From a bacterium (GTDB lineage: Bacteria > UBP15 > UBA6099 > DSWB01): 6,729 bases of DNA. Position numbers and translations under genes: made by a program. The notes beneath the pieces were generated by a model, which ran no database searches, was not told where the DNA came from, and saw only the letters and a list, made by a program, of their open reading frames with translations. The DNA lies in assembly GCA_020061125.1 (NCBI GenBank), contig JAGUYV010000266.1, positions 1 through 6,729 on the forward strand, read 5' to 3'. Positions within the stretch are counted from its first letter, which is position 1; the number at the start of each line of letters is the position of its first letter. Shown one piece after another: positions 1 through 6,729 of the stretch.

Positions 1-405
1 GCGGGCGTGTGGCTGCTGGCGCGCGGGCACGCTTCGCAGCGCTGGCCGCAGACGCAGGCGCGCATCGTGGAATCCAGAGTCGTGCGCACGGAAAGCGACG
101 ACGGCCCGGGCTATTACGCGGACATCCGCTACGAGTACGCGGTGCGCGGCAGGGCGTATTCCTCGGACAAGGTGTTCGTAGTGAACGAAGTTTACGAGAA
201 ACGCGAGAGTGCGGCGCGGCTTGCGGCGCGCTATCCCGAGGGGCATGAAGCGCGCGCGCATTACAACCCGAAGCGGCCCGCGGACTCGGTTCTGGAGCCG
301 AGGCGCAACGATTCATTTTTTCTGCTGCCGGTTTTCGGGGCGTGCGCGCTGGGCGTGTGCGGTTTGCTTTTCGCCAACCGCCCGCGCCGCGCGCCGCGCG
401 GCTGA
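1..405 (+). CDS. DUF3592-type membrane protein, 5' end outside window
   Basis: The frame is open to the left edge, so the true start is probably outside; the GTG at position 7 is only the first possible start codon inside. The 134 visible codons show the tail of a hydrophobic segment (VWLLA), then a soluble part beginning with SQRWPQTQARIVESRV, a YYADIRYEYAVRGRAYSSD stretch, AARYPEGHEARAHYNPKRP and SVLEP. A second hydrophobic helix follows (about residues 103-124 counted from the GTG), then an Arg-rich tail. An N-terminal helix, a small beta domain with a 'W-P-x-T/Q-x-x-R-I' opening and a 'Y-N/D-P-x-x-P' closing motif, and a C-terminal helix is the usual plan of DUF3592 proteins, which sit in the membrane and have no established function. 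The gene ends with TGA, and composition shifts from GC-rich to AT-rich shortly after it. Family assignment is from motif memory; the role is unknown. Confidence 0.75.
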   Translation, partial: AGVWLLARGHASQRWPQTQARIVESRVVRTESDDGPGYYADIRYEYAVRGRAYSSDKVFVVNEVYEKRESAARLAARYPEGHEARAHYNPKRPADSVLEPRRNDSFFLLPVFGACALGVCGLLFANRPRRAPRG

Positions 406-452
406 CGCGACGGAAGAACAAGAAGCACAAAAAACGGCGAAGCTATTTTCTG

Positions 453-469
453 GATTTATTGGAAAAAGG
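453..469. repeat. Left copy of imperfect direct repeat flanking AT-rich island
   Basis: This 17-nt segment matches 1181-1197 in the same orientation at 14 of 17 positions, including an uninterrupted TATTGGAAA. The two copies bracket the AT-rich membrane-protein gene, about 728 bp apart. It may be a target-site or attachment-type duplication, but AT-rich DNA makes short chance matches easier. Confidence 0.35.
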
Positions 470-473
470 CAGA

Positions 474-496
474 CAAATGTGCTGACTGAACATTTG
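474..496 (-). terminator. Possible weak terminator (inverted repeat) after the island gene
   Basis: CAAATGT (474-480) and ACATTTG (490-496) form a 7-bp stem with a 9-nt loop immediately after the stop codon of the minus-strand membrane-protein gene. Read on the minus strand, a run of five T follows about six bases beyond the stem. The stem is AT-rich and the T-run is displaced, so it is a weak intrinsic terminator at best. It could instead be a protein-binding dyad at the island edge. Confidence 0.3.
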
Positions 497-497
497 C

Positions 498-1088
498 TCA
501 ATCTGGTTTCAACGGGATTAACTTCACTACAAGAGAATATGTATTTATGAGACTTGCTATGATCAATATGATTGTCACCGACATTAAAATAATTGATAGT
601 GTGCAATTCACAGTCAAGATCAGCCCAATTAGAGATGAACAAATCGTGGAAAGAGCAGTGATTACACAGGTTATTAGTTGTTTTTTTGTTATGTCAAAAT
701 CTTCTAGTTCTTTTTTTAATTTGTCTATTTGTGGCATGTATCCTGGAATGGCAAAATCATGATCCGTGCCTGTTGCAGTACAATACGCTTCCATGGCTCG
801 AGGGAAGCTCCCTACTATTTCGCTGACATTTGTAATGATAATTTGATCCCGATTTAATTCATAGCCTTCCAAATTGTCGCGAAATGCTTGATTGTTATGC
901 CGTTCAGCAATTGCCTTGATAATATCTTTGTATTTATTGATGCTGTCAATCCGCATCTGTAAATAAAACAGGCATAGCATGCCTACAAAACCAATGAATG
1001 CAACGAATGTTTGCGCTGTGGTTGAAAAGAAATAGTAGTAATAAACTGGCTGATCGATATGAGATAACAAATCGTTTAGATACGACAT
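498..1088 (-). CDS. Unrecognised three-helix membrane protein, AT-rich
   Basis: I do not recognise a named family. The 196-residue product (from ATG at 1088) opens with an aromatic run YYYYFF (residues 17-21) leading into a first membrane helix (about 25-44: AQTFVAFIGFVGMLCLFYLQ). A basic, helical segment follows, then a soluble middle part (about 50-136) containing a charged stretch DKLKKELEDF, and two closely spaced helices at about 138-160 and 163-186. Positive charges after helix 1 suggest that the middle part is cytoplasmic. An in-frame TTG at 1103 would add five residues. I prefer the ATG, although neither start has a Shine-Dalgarno sequence. Codon use is strongly AT-biased compared with all neighbours, the gene stands alone on its strand, and imperfect direct repeats flank it: signs of recent transfer. 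The soluble-domain-plus-hairpin plan resembles many uncharacterised accessory or defence-type membrane proteins, but there is no direct evidence for such a role. Confidence 0.7.
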   Translation of the reverse strand: MSYLNDLLSHIDQPVYYYYFFSTTAQTFVAFIGFVGMLCLFYLQMRIDSINKYKDIIKAIAERHNNQAFRDNLEGYELNRDQIIITNVSEIVGSFPRAMEAYCTATGTDHDFAIPGYMPQIDKLKKELEDFDITKKQLITCVITALSTICSSLIGLILTVNCTLSIILMSVTIILIIASLINTYSLVVKLIPLKPD

Positions 1089-1093
1089 GCGTA

Positions 1094-1122
1094 ACGATAA
1101 CAAAAAGCAATCTTTATGTCAA
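1094..1122 (-). promoter_or_regulatory. Candidate sigma70-type promoter for the island membrane protein
   Basis: On the minus strand a perfect TTGACA (1122-1117) is followed after exactly 17 bases by TATCGT (1099-1094; four of six bases match TATAAT). The -10 box ends five bases before the ATG at 1088, so transcription would begin at or next to the start codon and give a leaderless or nearly leaderless mRNA. ATCTTT/AAAGAT arms (1110-1115 and 1134-1139) flank the -35 box. It could be chance in AT-rich DNA. Confidence 0.4.
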
Positions 1123-1180
1123 TTCATTAAATCAAAGATATTTTATCGGCAATGCTTCCCGGATTGTACTTGAAAACTGC

Positions 1181-1197
1181 GATCTATTGGAAACGGG
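1181..1197. repeat. Right copy of imperfect direct repeat flanking AT-rich island
   Basis: Partner of 453-469, with 14 of 17 identical positions in the same orientation. It lies three bases from the stop codon of the amidohydrolase, exactly where the composition changes from AT-rich to GC-rich. Confidence 0.35.
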
Positions 1198-1200
1198 AAA

Positions 1201-2601
1201 TCAGTCGAGGCTGAAGAGCACATCGTGGCCGGGCCAGAAGTCCGGCAGTTCCGGGTGTTTGGCCTTGAACCACGAGCCGCGCACGCAGGTGTAGCGCACT
1301 TTTTTGAACGCGCGCAAATCTTCGAGGGGGTTGCCTTCGATGACCGTGAACGAGGCGGTGCGTCCGGGCTTGACCAAGCCCAGGTCCGGGCGATCCACGA
1401 ACTCGGCGGCGCGGTTCGTGGCTGCGCGGATGGCGTCAATTTTGCTCATGCCCACGCTTTCGAGGCGCAGCAGCTCGTCGGCCAGTTCGCCGGGCCAGGC
1501 CACGACCGCGCCGATGTCCGTGCCCGCCACCATGGGGACGCCCGCGGCGAGCAGGTTGGCCGTGTTGCGCTCCTCGGCCGCGTAGCAGTATCGGTTGGCG
1601 CGCGTGTACCCGAACGAGCCGGAGTAATCCACGGCGCTGAAATCCGTCCAGGTTTCGCACACGAACTTGAGTTTTTCCAGGGCCTGCGGTTCGAAGAATT
1701 CGAGCGCCCTGTCGCTTTTCAGAAATCCGATTTTTTCCTCGAAGCGGGCCTGGCTGTCGTTGATGGTGAGGGTGGGGCATATGGTCACGCCGCTGTCGCG
1801 CACCTTCTGAATTTCGTCGTCCAGGAGGTCGCGGTCGTACACGCCGTGTTCCAGGCAGTCAATGTCGAATTCGAGCAGGTGGTGCATGTCCTCGGACCAG
1901 TTGTGGTGCACGCGCACCTTGACGCCGAGGCGGTGTGCGGCGTTGCAAAGGCCGTGGAGCACATCGTCGGCGATGGCGGGCAGGGTGCGCCCGTCCACGA
2001 GCATGCGGGACAGGCGCGTGTATCCGACCTTGATGATGCGCGCGCCCTGGGAGTAGAGGTATTCGGCGATGCGCGCGGCTTCGCGCGGGGTCTTGGGTTC
2101 GTATTTGGGCTGGCCCACAAGCGCGCCCGCAATGGCGGGCACGGGGTGCACGGCCTCGGGGTAGCCGCCCTCGCAACTGAAGATGCCGCCCGAGGCGATG
2201 ATCTCCGGCCCGGGCACGCCGCCGGACAGGACCTTGTTCTTCTGCCGGTTCAGAATCTTGATGGGCGAGAGCATGTCGCACACGCAGGTCACGCCCGCGG
2301 CCACGGTGGCGATGCAGTTGCGGTCCATCTGCTTGAAAGTCCAGAGGCCCGGAACACCCTTCTGCTCGGTCATGTACGGGCTAAGGATGTGCACATGGCA
2401 GTCAATGAGGCCGGGCGTGAGGGTGAGGCCCTGGAGGTCGAGCGTGGCTGCGCCGCCTGGGTCCGCGCAGTCCACATCGCGGATCATGCCGTTCTGGCAG
2501 AGCACGGTTGTCGGGCCGGAGAGTTCGCCGCGTTCCACATCGAGCACCCGCGCGTTGCGCACAAGAACCCGGGGATTGGCAAACGGCAGTTTCTCTAACA
2601 T
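1201..2601 (-). CDS. Metal-dependent amidohydrolase (imidazolonepropionase/prolidase-like)
   Basis: A 466-residue cytosolic amidohydrolase with no signal peptide. The N-terminal beta part carries VLVRNARVLD (residues 12-21). The metal site appears complete: H69-x-H71 in LIDCHVHI, K191 in IIKVGYT (candidate carboxylated lysine), His at 232/233 in VRVHHNW, H252 in DCLEHG, and D362 in AGTDIG. The C-terminus has the family's RAATNRAAEFV and GLVKPGRTASFTVIEGNPLEDL segments. This ligand set is that of binuclear-type amidohydrolases related to imidazolonepropionase and prolidase-like enzymes, which cleave C-N bonds in cyclic amides or dipeptides. The substrate cannot be read from sequence. The reading frame stays open 86 codons upstream, but that extension overlaps the divergent oxidoreductase, lacks family sequence and is rejected; ATG at 2601 gives a normal length. 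The Shine-Dalgarno is weak (AGCGGA). It is divergent to the oxidoreductase at 2708, which suggests common regulation. Confidence 0.88.
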   Translation of the reverse strand: MLEKLPFANPRVLVRNARVLDVERGELSGPTTVLCQNGMIRDVDCADPGGAATLDLQGLTLTPGLIDCHVHILSPYMTEQKGVPGLWTFKQMDRNCIATVAAGVTCVCDMLSPIKILNRQKNKVLSGGVPGPEIIASGGIFSCEGGYPEAVHPVPAIAGALVGQPKYEPKTPREAARIAEYLYSQGARIIKVGYTRLSRMLVDGRTLPAIADDVLHGLCNAAHRLGVKVRVHHNWSEDMHHLLEFDIDCLEHGVYDRDLLDDEIQKVRDSGVTICPTLTINDSQARFEEKIGFLKSDRALEFFEPQALEKLKFVCETWTDFSAVDYSGSFGYTRANRYCYAAEERNTANLLAAGVPMVAGTDIGAVVAWPGELADELLRLESVGMSKIDAIRAATNRAAEFVDRPDLGLVKPGRTASFTVIEGNPLEDLRAFKKVRYTCVRGSWFKAKHPELPDFWPGHDVLFSLD

Positions 2602-2610
2602 TCCGCTAAT

Positions 2611-2616
2611 ATTATA
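2611..2616 (-). promoter_or_regulatory. Candidate -10 box for the amidohydrolase
   Basis: A perfect TATAAT read on the minus strand ends nine bases before the ATG at 2601. No good -35 box lies 16-18 bases upstream; a TCGACA is present only 10 bases upstream, which is too close. If used, the leader would be only a few bases long. Confidence 0.35.
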
Positions 2617-2649
2617 CAAACCGTGTTGTCGAAAACCGAATGAATTTTG

Positions 2650-2684
2650 CGGACATGCCTCTGGCCGGAGTGATATAATCATTC
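2650..2684 (+). promoter_or_regulatory. Candidate promoter with overlapping dyad for the 2708 oxidoreductase
   Basis: CGGACA (2650-2655; four of six bases match TTGACA) is followed after 18 bases by a perfect TATAAT (2674-2679), placing the start of transcription about 20 bases before the ATG. An imperfect 17-nt palindrome (2668-2684), with TGAT/ATCA inner arms and GA/TC outer ends, lies directly over the -10 box, where a repressor could block transcription. No regulator gene is in the window. Confidence 0.45.
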
Positions 2685-2707
2685 GCATCGGGAACGGGGG
2701 CGCGTCC

Positions 2708-3691
2708 ATGAGCCAACTCACTTTCGGCATCCTGTCCACAGCCAGCGTGAACGCGTACGGCTTTCTGCCGTTCGTGAACCGTGTGCGCGGGGTCAGGCTG
2801 CTGGGAATCGCCTCGCGCGATCTCTCCGCCGCGAAACAGTACGCCGGAAAACACGGCATCCCCCGCGCGTACGGGTCTTATGACGAACTGCTCGCGGACT
2901 CGGACATCCGCGCCGTCTACATACCGCTACCAGCAGGAATGCACCGCGCATGGAGCCTGCGTGCGCTGGACGCGGGCAAGCATGTGCTGTGCGAAAAGCC
3001 CATGGCCGTGAATGCGGCCCAGGCCCGCGAGGTGGCCGCTAAAGCCGCGGAAACCGGTCTCACCTTTTCCGAGGGCTACCACTACATGCACCACCCGCTG
3101 TTCCGCAGGATTCTGGACATCGCGGCCGGAGCAGAGATCGGGGATTTGCTGTGCGTCAACGCCGCATTCGGCGTGCCCCTGACGGACAAATCCAAGGTGC
3201 AGTTCAACCCGGATCTGGGGGGCGGGGCGCTGCTGGACACCGGGTGCTATCCCGTGAGCCTGGCGCGCGCGCTGGCTGGAGGCGGCCCGTTCAAGGTCGT
3301 GCGCGCCCGCGCCCGACGCACGGCCTCGGGCGTGGATGGAACCCTGGATGCGGAATTGCTGTTCGGCGCCGGAGTCCGCGCACGCATCCAGTGCAGCATC
3401 GAAAAATTCGTTCCCATGCATGCGCATATCAAAGGCTCCGAGGGCGGCCTGTTCGTGTTTTCCCCGTTCACCCCGGCCATGCCCGCGGGTCCGGTCGTTG
3501 TGCCGCTTTATCTGGCCGTGCTGCAAAAGGGCCGCAGGCTGGAGAGCGTGCGCGTGCCCTCGGCTGTGAGTTACGAGCGCCAGATCCGCGCGTTCCGTGA
3601 CGCCGTGAACCAGGGACGCCGGCCCGAGACAAGCGCGGAGCACGGCGCGCAGGTTCTGGAAATCATGGACGCCATTTACGCCGCCCTGTAA
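2708..3691 (+). CDS. Gfo/Idh/MocA oxidoreductase, dihydrodiol-dehydrogenase-like
   Basis: A 327-residue NAD(P)-dependent oxidoreductase, normal length for the family. The N-terminal Rossmann part begins LTFGILSTASVNAYGFLP (residues 4-21). In place of a strict GxGxxG it has the G-I-L-S-T-A form seen in the dimeric dihydrodiol dehydrogenase and glucose-fructose oxidoreductase branch. The EKP catalytic-lysine motif is at 96-98 (GKHVLCEKPMAVNAAQA). The second domain has EGYHYMHHPLF (122-132) and GGGALLDTGCYPVSLAR (171-187), again typical of the dihydrodiol-dehydrogenase branch. The start at ATG 2708 has GGGGG seven bases upstream and sits directly before the Rossmann strand; the longer in-frame reading starting at 2183 is antisense to the amidohydrolase and is rejected. 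Enzymes of this type oxidise or reduce sugar, cyclitol or diol hydroxyls with a nicotinamide cofactor. The substrate is unknown. It is transcribed divergently from the amidohydrolase. Confidence 0.88.
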   Translation: MSQLTFGILSTASVNAYGFLPFVNRVRGVRLLGIASRDLSAAKQYAGKHGIPRAYGSYDELLADSDIRAVYIPLPAGMHRAWSLRALDAGKHVLCEKPMAVNAAQAREVAAKAAETGLTFSEGYHYMHHPLFRRILDIAAGAEIGDLLCVNAAFGVPLTDKSKVQFNPDLGGGALLDTGCYPVSLARALAGGGPFKVVRARARRTASGVDGTLDAELLFGAGVRARIQCSIEKFVPMHAHIKGSEGGLFVFSPFTPAMPAGPVVVPLYLAVLQKGRRLESVRVPSAVSYERQIRAFRDAVNQGRRPETSAEHGAQVLEIMDAIYAAL

Positions 3692-3995
3692 TATGCGCAA
3701 GGAAAGGTGCATACCAGCGCGGCCTCTGGACGCAAAGGCGCATAAAGTCCGAGAAGGGAAAGCTCTTTTTCATGTGAGCTTAAAGGATGTAGGGCGGCGT
3801 CGCTGAACGCCGCCGCCGCAGGACGCGGACAACCGCGGCAAAGGCAACGATTCCCATAGGTCCGCCGAGGACAGCAAAACATTGACGGGCGGCGTATTCA
3901 ATCAGCCGCCCGGCCCTGCAAGCATCCTCCGAACGACTTGAATAAAATTGCGCAAGAGCAAGCGCTCCATCAAAAATCATCCGGAGAGTCAGGAC
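3692..3995. other. Intergenic gap between the two oxidoreductase genes
   Basis: This gap of about 300 bases has no convincing gene. After the stop at 3691 there are only weak hairpins: TATGC/GCATA (3692-3713) and AAGCTC/GAGCTT (3760-3781, with a T-run in the loop rather than after the stem). Neither is a standard terminator. The REP-like repeat occupies 3784-3928. A TAAAAT at 3943-3948 is a possible -10 box without a clear -35, followed by the small palindrome TTGCGCAA (3948-3955), both upstream of the 3996 gene. Confidence 0.6.
3784..3928. repeat. Pair of inverted REP/BIME-like palindromic units
   Basis: Unit 1 contains an 8-bp perfect stem, GGCGGCGT (3793-3800) with ACGCCGCC (3807-3814), and a 6-nt loop. 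Unit 2 contains GGGCGGC (3887-3893) with GCCGCCC (3905-3911) and an 11-nt loop. Reverse-complementing unit 2 aligns it to unit 1 beyond the stems: both read AGGATG, then T/CAGGGC, then GGCG, then TGAA, then CGCCGCC, with small insertions of 2-4 bases in unit 2. The pair is therefore two diverged inverted copies bracketing about 70 bp, as in bacterial interspersed mosaic elements or a small MITE-like element. No T-run follows either stem, so they are not plain terminators. Confidence 0.55.
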
Positions 3996-5153
3996 ATGGA
4001 CAGGAACAAAATCAAGCTCGCGGTCATAGGCTGCGGCCGCATCGCGCGCCAGGGGCATCTGCCTTATTTGAAAAACCATCCGCGCGCCCGCGTGGCTGCG
4101 GCGGTGGATGTGTCCGAGAGCAACACCAAATCCGTGTGCAGGGAAGCCGGCATCCCGAACGCCTATGACGACGCGGAAAAAATGTTCGCCGCGGAGAAAC
4201 CGGACGGGGTTCTGATCTGCACGCCCAACTGGGCGCACAAGCCGCTCACGCTCATGGCTGCGGAGCATGGCGCGCATGTGTTCTGCGAAAAGCCCATGGC
4301 CGTGAACGCGGCCGAGTGCGAGGACATGATCGCCGCGTGCGGCAAGGCCGGGGTGAACCTGCAAATCGGCATGGTGAAGCGGTTCGACGCCGGGTTCGTG
4401 CGCGCGCGCAAAATGGCCCGGGACGGACGCCTCGGCAGGGTGTCGCAAATCTATGCGTCGTATCTGAATCCGCCGCCGCCGCGTCTGGACGGGCCTGTTT
4501 TCAAAACCGCGGAAAAGTGGGCCGCGCGTTTGGGCGTGGACCTCATGGCCAGCATGGGCCTGTGGCGCATGACCGACGAGCGCACCGGCGGCGGGCAGCT
4601 CCTCGAAATGGGAACCCACCTCCTGGACCTGTTCTTCTACTTCCTTGGCGAACATCCCGAACGGCACGGCGGTTTGCTGAACCGCAACCGGGACGACATG
4701 CGCTGGGAAGACCAGGGCACGCTCATCGTGAAGATGCCCTCGGGCGCGATCTGCACCGCGGAAATGAACATGAGCGTCACCGCGGACAACATGGTGGGGG
4801 AGAAGGGGACGATCTACGGGAGCAGGGCGTCGCTGGCGTTCAACCATGTTAACGCCATGTGGTACGGACTGCCGTTTCACCATTATTACCCGACGCGGCT
4901 CTCGCTGTACCAGGCGCACTCGCCGGTGACCGGGATGGGCTTTCCCGTGTGGCCCATTCCCGCGGGCCGCGCGCATTACATGCACAAACTGCAAATGGAC
5001 TATTTCATAGATGGCATACTGGGGCGCAATCGCGATTATTTCGGGATGGGAGAGGACTTTGCGGCGACGGGGCGCGACGGCCTAGAAGCCATGCGCGTGA
5101 TCAGCGCGGCGTATGAGGCGCGCGAGGTGTCCGGCGCCGCGGGCGCGCCATAG
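3996..5153 (+). CDS. Gfo/Idh/MocA family oxidoreductase
   Basis: A 385-residue NAD(P)-dependent oxidoreductase. The N-terminal Rossmann fold has a classical KLAVIGCGRIARQGHLPYL (residues 8-25, GxGxxA type). The EKP motif is at 98-100 (HVFCEKPMAVNAAE), and LQIGMVKRFDAGF follows at 122-134. The C-terminal domain carries GGGQLLEMGTHLLDLF (198-213), with H208 a likely catalytic histidine. An unusual proline run, NPPPPRLDGP (158-167), and an aromatic/His-rich stretch near 289-305 are probably substrate-side loops. ATG at 3996 has GGAG nine bases upstream and sits just before the Rossmann strand; an in-frame ATG at 3948 adds 16 basic, non-family residues and is less likely. This is a different subgroup from the oxidoreductase at 2708 (only the Rossmann and EKP segments are clearly alike), so it is not a recent tandem duplicate. 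Substrate unknown; sugar or inositol derivatives are typical of the family. Confidence 0.88.
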   Translation: MDRNKIKLAVIGCGRIARQGHLPYLKNHPRARVAAAVDVSESNTKSVCREAGIPNAYDDAEKMFAAEKPDGVLICTPNWAHKPLTLMAAEHGAHVFCEKPMAVNAAECEDMIAACGKAGVNLQIGMVKRFDAGFVRARKMARDGRLGRVSQIYASYLNPPPPRLDGPVFKTAEKWAARLGVDLMASMGLWRMTDERTGGGQLLEMGTHLLDLFFYFLGEHPERHGGLLNRNRDDMRWEDQGTLIVKMPSGAICTAEMNMSVTADNMVGEKGTIYGSRASLAFNHVNAMWYGLPFHHYYPTRLSLYQAHSPVTGMGFPVWPIPAGRAHYMHKLQMDYFIDGILGRNRDYFGMGEDFAATGRDGLEAMRVISAAYEAREVSGAAGAP

Positions 5154-5211: not shown

Positions 5212-5418
5212 TTAGAGTTTGGTCACATTAGCCGCTTGTTCGCCTTTGGGTCCGGTGACGATTTCGAATTCCACTTCCTGTCCTTCGTCCAGGGTTTTGT
5301 ATCCATCATCCTGGATTGCGGAATAGTGGACGAAAACATCGTTGCCTTCGGGGCGCTGGATAAAACCAAAGCCCTTGCTGGCGTTGAACCATTTGACGGT
5401 GCCTCGCATCCTTTCCAT
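5212..5418 (-). CDS. CspA-family cold shock protein
   Basis: A 68-residue single cold shock domain, full length for the family. It opens [12 protein letters not shown], has the RNP1 motif KGFGFI at residues 15-20 and RNP2 VFVH at 28-31, then a [16 protein letters not shown] segment and an AANVTKL end. Such proteins bind single-stranded RNA and DNA in the cytoplasm through the aromatic residues of RNP1 and RNP2, and act as RNA chaperones; some are cold-induced and others constitutive. The start at 5418 is fixed by AAGGAGG eight bases upstream (5433-5427), the best ribosome binding site in the window; the second ATG at 5409 is less well placed. A strong-looking promoter lies about 220 bases upstream and an intrinsic terminator follows, so it forms its own transcription unit. 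It lies downstream of, and on the same strand as, the fhlB-like gene. Confidence 0.97.
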
Positions 5419-5640
5419 CAGGCCGGCCTCCTTGTTCTGTGCTCGTGTTCAGCCCGTACGGCGTTTCTGGTACAGGCAAAGAAGGCCAGCGCTTCTGTTG
5501 CCTTACAGAGAACCACATACACCTAAACACACCTGTGGGCTTGGCCCACGCAAAATGCAGACCATCGCCAATCAGCCTTCCGATCATTCAGTTGGGGAAT
5601 GAAATCGCGTCTGTTCAGCAACTGCGCCTGCACCTCGACC
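5419..5640 (-). promoter_or_regulatory. Long 5' leader of the cold shock gene
   Basis: If transcription starts near 5640, the mRNA carries about 220 untranslated bases. A perfect GTGGGC/GCCCAC hairpin with a 3-nt loop lies at 5535-5549. No coding frame with a ribosome binding site is evident. Long structured leaders are a known feature of cold-regulated csp mRNAs, where they change fold with temperature; whether this one does so is inference. Confidence 0.5.
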
Positions 5641-5722: not shown

Positions 5723-6022
5723 TCACAGGAGTCCGTCGCGGGCGCGGCGCTCCATGCGGTAGATGAAGGACAGGACTTCGGCCACCACCTGGTACAGCTC
5801 GTAGGGGATGGCGTCGCCGAGGTCGAGCTTGACGAGCATTTGCACGAGCGCGGGGTCTTCGTACAGGGGCACGCCGTACTCTTTGGCCATCTCGATGATA
5901 CGCTCGGCCACCAGGCCCTTGCCCTTGGCCACCACGCGCGGGGCCGGGTCTCGCTCCAGGTCGTAGGCCAGAGCCGCTGCCTGCTTGCGGGGGGGCTGTC
6001 TGCGCGCGTTGCCGTCCGTCAT
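5723..6022 (-). CDS. Stand-alone FlhB C-terminal-domain protein (FhlB/EscU-YscU-HrcU type)
   Basis: A 99-residue protein matching only the cytoplasmic C-terminal domain of FlhB, the export-switch component of the flagellar type III secretion apparatus. Recognisable segments are AALAYDLERDPAPRVVAKGKG (residues 16-36), AERIIEMAKEYGVPLYEDPALV (39-60) and IPYELYQVVAEVLSFIYRM (72-90). There are no membrane helices, so the protein is soluble. The autocleavage motif NPTH that precedes this domain in full-length FlhB is absent; the equivalent place reads RKQAAAL. Known FhlB-type proteins can replace the cleaved FlhB C-domain in part and affect substrate switching. It starts at ATG 6022, overlapping the stop codon of the upstream gene by one base (TGATG), with GGAG five bases before it, so translational coupling is likely. 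The only other in-frame start candidates are upstream, inside the neighbouring gene, and give non-family sequence. Confidence 0.85.
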   Translation of the reverse strand: MTDGNARRQPPRKQAAALAYDLERDPAPRVVAKGKGLVAERIIEMAKEYGVPLYEDPALVQMLVKLDLGDAIPYELYQVVAEVLSFIYRMERRARDGLL

Positions 6023-6729
6023 CAGATCTCCATGTCTATCGTGGTGATGCCGGGCGCGGCGGGCATGGCCTGCTGCGCCTCTTTGCGCTGCCTGCGGGTC
6101 TGCACGGTCACGCTCACGGTTTCCAGGGCGTAGGGCGTGCTCTTCAGCCCCTCGGAAAGCTCTTCGAGATACCTGTCCAGAATCATTTTCACGCGCTTGT
6201 TCTGCACGCGGATGTTGCACCGCAGGTTGCGCTCGAAGGTGTTGATGCTGATCATGCTCAAACCGATGAACTCGGTGTCCAGGATGATGACCAGGGACGC
6301 GTTGTCCGGGTCCACCTCTTTTGTCCCGTGCTTCCGGTTTTTGCCCTCGTGGTTTTTGTACACCTTGAGTTTGCCGATTTCCACCTTGCCGCCCACATTG
6401 ATGGGGAAGAAAGTGACAAACGCTTCGGTGGGATTTGCGCCGTTGTGGGCCAGGAGGTTGGACAGGGCGGCGTACTGCAGGCCGCGCGCCATGTTGAGGG
6501 CTGCGTTCGCGGGGTCCTGGGACTGCGCGTTCTGGGCCAGGGTGTTGAGAGCTGTGCGCAGGTCGGCCGCGCCGCGCAACTGGTTGGCCAGAAGATCGGC
6601 TTCCTGGCGCAGGGCGGCGCTCGCGGCCTGTTGCGCGAGCGCCTGCACGCGGGCCGGAATGTCCCGTGTCTGTTCCGGCGATTGCGCGGTTGCGGTGTCA
6701 CGCACCAGTTGAGCGGCGCTTTCGATGAA
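6022..6729 (-). CDS. Protein with FliK-like C-terminal domain, 5' end outside window
   Basis: The frame stays open to the right edge (visible start ...FIESAAQLV), so the protein is N-terminally truncated here; the GTG at 6705 is only an internal candidate. The 235 visible residues have an Ala/Gln/Leu-rich helical first part (to about residue 90 from the GTG), then a folded domain. This starts AFVTFFPINVGGKVEIGKLKVY (95-116), followed by a basic loop KNHEGKNRKHGTKE, then NASLVIILDTEFIGLSMIS, RNLRCNIRVQNKRVKMIL and a helix ending in STPYALETVSVTVQ. The alternation of 'small-molecule-like' beta strands with the final helix-strand resembles the C-terminal domain of flagellar hook-length control protein FliK. 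Coupling by TGATG to an FhlB-type gene matches the paired arrangement known in other flagellated bacteria (for example B. subtilis ylqG-ylqH). A role in flagellar export or hook-length control is inferred; it may be a second FliK-like paralogue rather than FliK itself. Confidence 0.7.
   Translation of the reverse strand, partial: FIESAAQLVRDTATAQSPEQTRDIPARVQALAQQAASAALRQEADLLANQLRGAADLRTALNTLAQNAQSQDPANAALNMARGLQYAALSNLLAHNGANPTEAFVTFFPINVGGKVEIGKLKVYKNHEGKNRKHGTKEVDPDNASLVIILDTEFIGLSMISINTFERNLRCNIRVQNKRVKMILDRYLEELSEGLKSTPYALETVSVTVQTRRQRKEAQQAMPAAPGITTIDMEI

Follow-up and report, generated by a model that had tools for sequence, protein, structure and literature searches.

The window, i.e. 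the whole stretch of DNA that was analysed, comprises 6729 bases and corresponds to an entire contig; the genome is 79% complete and fragmented into 513 contigs. Its left end is occupied by a gene for a DUF3592 protein, which converges with an amidohydrolase gene (Table 1). An AT-rich island of about 0.8 kb with one gene lies between the 3' ends of these two host genes. The island gene is codirectional with the amidohydrolase gene, 97 bp downstream of it, and convergent with the DUF3592 gene. Segmentation with two breakpoints placed the island at 414-1205, with a GC content of 0.36 as opposed to 0.66 in its local flanks, which agrees with the AT-rich stretch between GC-richer flanks that had been described in a first-pass annotation of this DNA. 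As that annotation had also stated, no recombinase was found among the genes of the window. Furthermore, there were no tRNA genes in positions 1-4101 and no Rfam matches in the window.

Table 1. Features of the AT-rich island and its neighbourhood (positions in the window).
Feature	Position	Strand	Remarks
DUF3592 gene, left neighbour, convergent	1..405	+	PF12158, E 4.6e-16; cut by contig start
AT-rich island	414..1205	.	maximum-likelihood composition edges; GC 0.36 vs 0.66 outside
Imperfect 17-nt repeat, left copy	453..469	+	14/17 match; within chance
Single ORF, putative membrane protein	498..1103	-	201 codons; probable ATG 1088-1086, giving 196 aa
Predicted sigma-70-like promoter, TTGACA-17-TATCGT, TG before -10	1094..1122	-	from motif scan and sequence
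Imperfect 17-nt repeat, right copy	1181..1197	+	starts three bases past amidohydrolase stop; within chance
Amidohydrolase gene, right neighbour	1201..2601	-	orthologues in five other genomes of the order

Toward the other end of the window, more than 200 bases before a cold-shock gene (5212-5418, minus strand) are AT-richer and apparently noncoding (5419-5640); they have no Rfam match at the gathering score. A gene at 5726-6729 on the minus strand has a weak FliK-like C-terminal match, which is below the cut-off, and the short gene beside it presumably encodes a homologue of the FlhB C-terminus.

The island gene and its predicted product

At the composition of the island, an open reading frame of 200 codons arises by chance with a probability of about 5e-7 per start (own arithmetic from the stop frequency). 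Because a chance reading frame of this length is very unlikely, the island gene is taken as real. Its GC3 is 0.37 vs 0.80-0.86 in the genes for the amidohydrolase, two oxidoreductases, the FliK-like protein, and the DUF3592 protein; the cold-shock gene in the window has a GC3 of 0.59. A codon-adaptation comparison, which had been proposed in the first-pass annotation, characterized the island gene as off-type, with a CAI-like codon fit to the flanks of 0.25 vs 0.58-0.77 for its neighbours.

Hydropathy analysis of the putative product indicated an N-terminal helix, a hydrophilic middle part (about 90 residues), and a C-terminal stretch of strong hydrophobicity, which reads as a helix pair. With about three hydrophobic helices encoded in the minus-strand frame, the initial description of a single three-helix membrane protein was upheld. 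Single-sequence structure prediction yielded a mostly or entirely helical model with a pLDDT of 59.5, which is too poor for a fold search. Neither a curated family nor a solved structure matched the protein.

The island gene was not found in any of the six further genomes from the phylum UBP15, and searches of phage, plasmid, viral contig, and species-genome collections with scans that detect close relatives only returned no relative of its product. Distant relatives may exist beyond the reach of such peptide-pattern scans. In a sample of 386 genomes, one weak match was obtained (genome G281, E 0.004), which was rejected as spurious; it is a wrong-strand overlap of a long RNA methyltransferase-like reading frame and has a stop inside.

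A promoter scan found four sites vs 2.4 expected by chance. The candidate promoter of the island gene ends five bases ahead of the probable ATG, and it is only suggestive that the gene might be expressed from this predicted promoter of its own, which would possibly be leaderless, with a start about at the ATG. As read from the sequence, a TATAAT box is also located a few bases before the ATG of the amidohydrolase gene (2602-2640, minus strand), and the -10-like box of the island gene has the same position relative to its ATG. In this lineage, mRNAs with a short leader or none at all may be frequent.

The imperfect repeat and other AT-rich islands of the genome

An imperfect 17-nt direct repeat (GATYTATTGGAAA) is located near both ends of the island, and its coordinates, its 14 matching positions, and its exact nine-base core were borne out as first annotated. 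The accompanying assumption that the repeat exceeds chance was not. Among dinucleotide shuffles of two 100-bp edge windows, 26 of 2000 (1.3%) reached 14/17 matches, and the same ungapped local score was obtained in 17 of 300 shuffles (5.7%) of 160-bp windows. When the left edge of one island was compared with the right edge of a different island of the same genome, 14/17 or better was found in 2.6% of 342 comparisons. Within the island there is a second 14/17 pair (at 825 and 1084), which is at no border. Measured inward from the composition breaks, the distance is 39 bp to the start of the left copy and 8 bp to the end of the right copy; direct repeats beyond chance were not found at both breaks. 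From these sequence comparisons, the repeat is most likely a coincidence, with a nominal chance of 1 to 6% that leaves room for a real degenerate site.

A survey of 739 kb of the source genome, covering contigs of at least 3 kb (100 whole or partial contigs in addition to the window), identified 23 AT-rich islands including that of the window, i.e. one per 32 kb; they are about 0.4 to 2 kb long. Apart from that of the window, eleven or twelve stretches contain at least one AT-rich reading frame of at least 90 codons. A 400-kb sample of another genome (G003) contained 49 low-GC stretches at the same threshold, a count that is not comparable with that of the source genome owing to a lower overall GC content (0.54). 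No protein family is common to the island genes of the source genome, and no two of their products matched each other by BLASTP. Domain tests of ten island proteins revealed TPR, M50-like peptidase, RelA/SpoT, and copper amine oxidase N-terminal domains, while six proteins had no named domain; putative membrane proteins without a named family are also encoded by unrelated island genes. Two island proteins match candidate defence models, one of them only weakly. The strong match, to PDC-S33 (E 2.4e-19), is that of the RelA/SpoT-domain protein (PF04607, E 2.6e-21) encoded in a single-gene island at L190:834-1925. The M50B-like peptidase domain (E 1.2e-8) is encoded by an island gene at L175:1409-2077. 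In the island at L125:4793-6471, the gene for a TPR protein directly adjoins a tRNA-Ser (cga) gene; tRNA genes are classical, typical integration positions.

Edges could be tested for 19 islands. A consistent edge repeat was not found at the 18 islands other than that of the window, and their scores are similar to those of unrelated edges. Since the best edge-repeat score was 6-8 in 17 of the 19 islands and 10 in two (those of the window and of L154), vs 3.5% of unrelated edge pairs scoring 10 or more, the islands share no border signature.

Movement via the repeat by a recombinase acting in trans had been suggested in the first-pass annotation. According to this explanation, the island arrived as a cassette, inserted by such a recombinase or via a degenerate att-like pair, and the 17-nt direct repeats were left at its ends. 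This would fit the occurrence of the repeat with its exact core near both ends, the position of the right copy directly behind the amidohydrolase gene, and the fact that the pattern written from both copies is present at no other place in the genome without mismatches; if up to two mismatches are allowed in the degenerate pattern, only two more places, both weaker, are found genome-wide. However, the strength of the match is within chance for AT-rich edges, the left copy is off the composition break, the other islands have no consistent edge repeat, and the site has neither a tRNA gene nor an integrase. Insertion of this kind is therefore regarded as unlikely. The more specific version, in which a recombinase in trans would have used a degenerate 17-nt site to move a cargo cassette whose membrane protein belongs to a new family, is very improbable.

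Origin of the island

The comparison set for the phylum UBP15 is small and consists of seven genomes including the source, so six others; a literature search under the phylum name turned up only unrelated ubiquitin proteases. Orthologues of the amidohydrolase with 64-72% identity are encoded in five of the six other genomes, and a wider scan of named genomes found, apart from one orthologue, only distant amidohydrolases. Over the 500 bases past the amidohydrolase stop, the GC content is 0.51-0.55 in the five orthologous loci vs 0.37 in the window, and neither the island gene nor AT-rich DNA was found after the stop in these loci. The DUF3592 gene has a weak, non-syntenic match in only one other genome of the order. 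It is next to the amidohydrolase gene in none of the other genomes of the phylum, and hence there is no site at which both flanks can be compared. Because the five orthologous loci contain neither AT-rich DNA nor the island gene, the island is, on this comparison, lineage-specific at this locus. Two related genomes have AT-rich stretches (GC about 0.30-0.45; L018:1-4200 and L019:1800-6300) on the upstream side of their amidohydrolase orthologue.

Foreign composition and codon usage unlike those of the host, together with the absence of the gene from the six other genomes and of AT-rich DNA from the five orthologous loci, support the original claim of an acquired gene. Thus, the first-pass interpretation stands with respect to acquisition and falls with respect to repeat-mediated movement; likewise, its description of the AT-rich stretch, the single reading frame, the repeat coordinates, and the lack of a recombinase holds, while a repeat beyond chance does not. 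As a donor or a relative was not found, it is composition and phyletic absence that suggest acquisition. Most likely, the island represents an accessory gene of an ordinary kind that was acquired horizontally and is located between two convergent genes; its repeat would be due to chance, and nothing points to a dedicated mobility mechanism.

Alternatively, the island could be the remnant of a larger AT-rich element derived from a prophage or plasmid, which was eroded down to one gene. Such an origin would be in line with the presence, in the same genome, of similarly composed islands that reach about 2 kb and of the island abutting the tRNA-Ser gene, but the island of the window has no phage or plasmid match, and its reading frame is intact and fills most of it, which makes erosion improbable. 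An assembly or binning artefact, in which a fragment of another organism was joined into the contig, is scarcely credible: although the genome is fragmented and the 6.7-kb window makes up a complete contig, a chimera need not be invoked because the DNA flanking the island on both sides has a composition ordinary for this genome and 22 more such islands are present on other contigs within the 739 kb.

For an ordinary acquired accessory gene, the following course can be proposed. An AT-rich foreign fragment of about 0.8 kb with one gene, and probably with its own promoter, would have entered the host genome by illegitimate or homology-assisted recombination. It would then have been fixed between the 3' ends of the convergent genes, where an insertion harms neither of them. 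The product, with its single N-terminal helix, hydrophilic middle part, and C-terminal helix pair, would be a small membrane protein, most likely an accessory protein of the inner membrane such as is introduced by phage or plasmid DNA.

For a phylum represented by very few genomes, the locus provides one further example of an orphan gene that lies in DNA of foreign appearance. The survey is more useful, as it indicates that the islands carry diverse, mostly unnamed genes without a common border repeat.

Among known systems, att-bounded gene cassettes and integrated elements resemble the island in that one gene is located between two similar short sequences. In contrast to these, the repeat of the island is weak and off the left break, is accompanied by neither an integrase nor a tRNA gene, and has no counterpart at the genome's other islands. 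Bacterial genomes contain a general class of AT-rich ORFan genes that were acquired horizontally. Members of this class are not generally flanked by an imperfect repeat, and the repeat of the island is within chance. With a single short gene whose relatives were not found, a GC content far below that of the host, and a position between host genes, the island resembles the members of this class.
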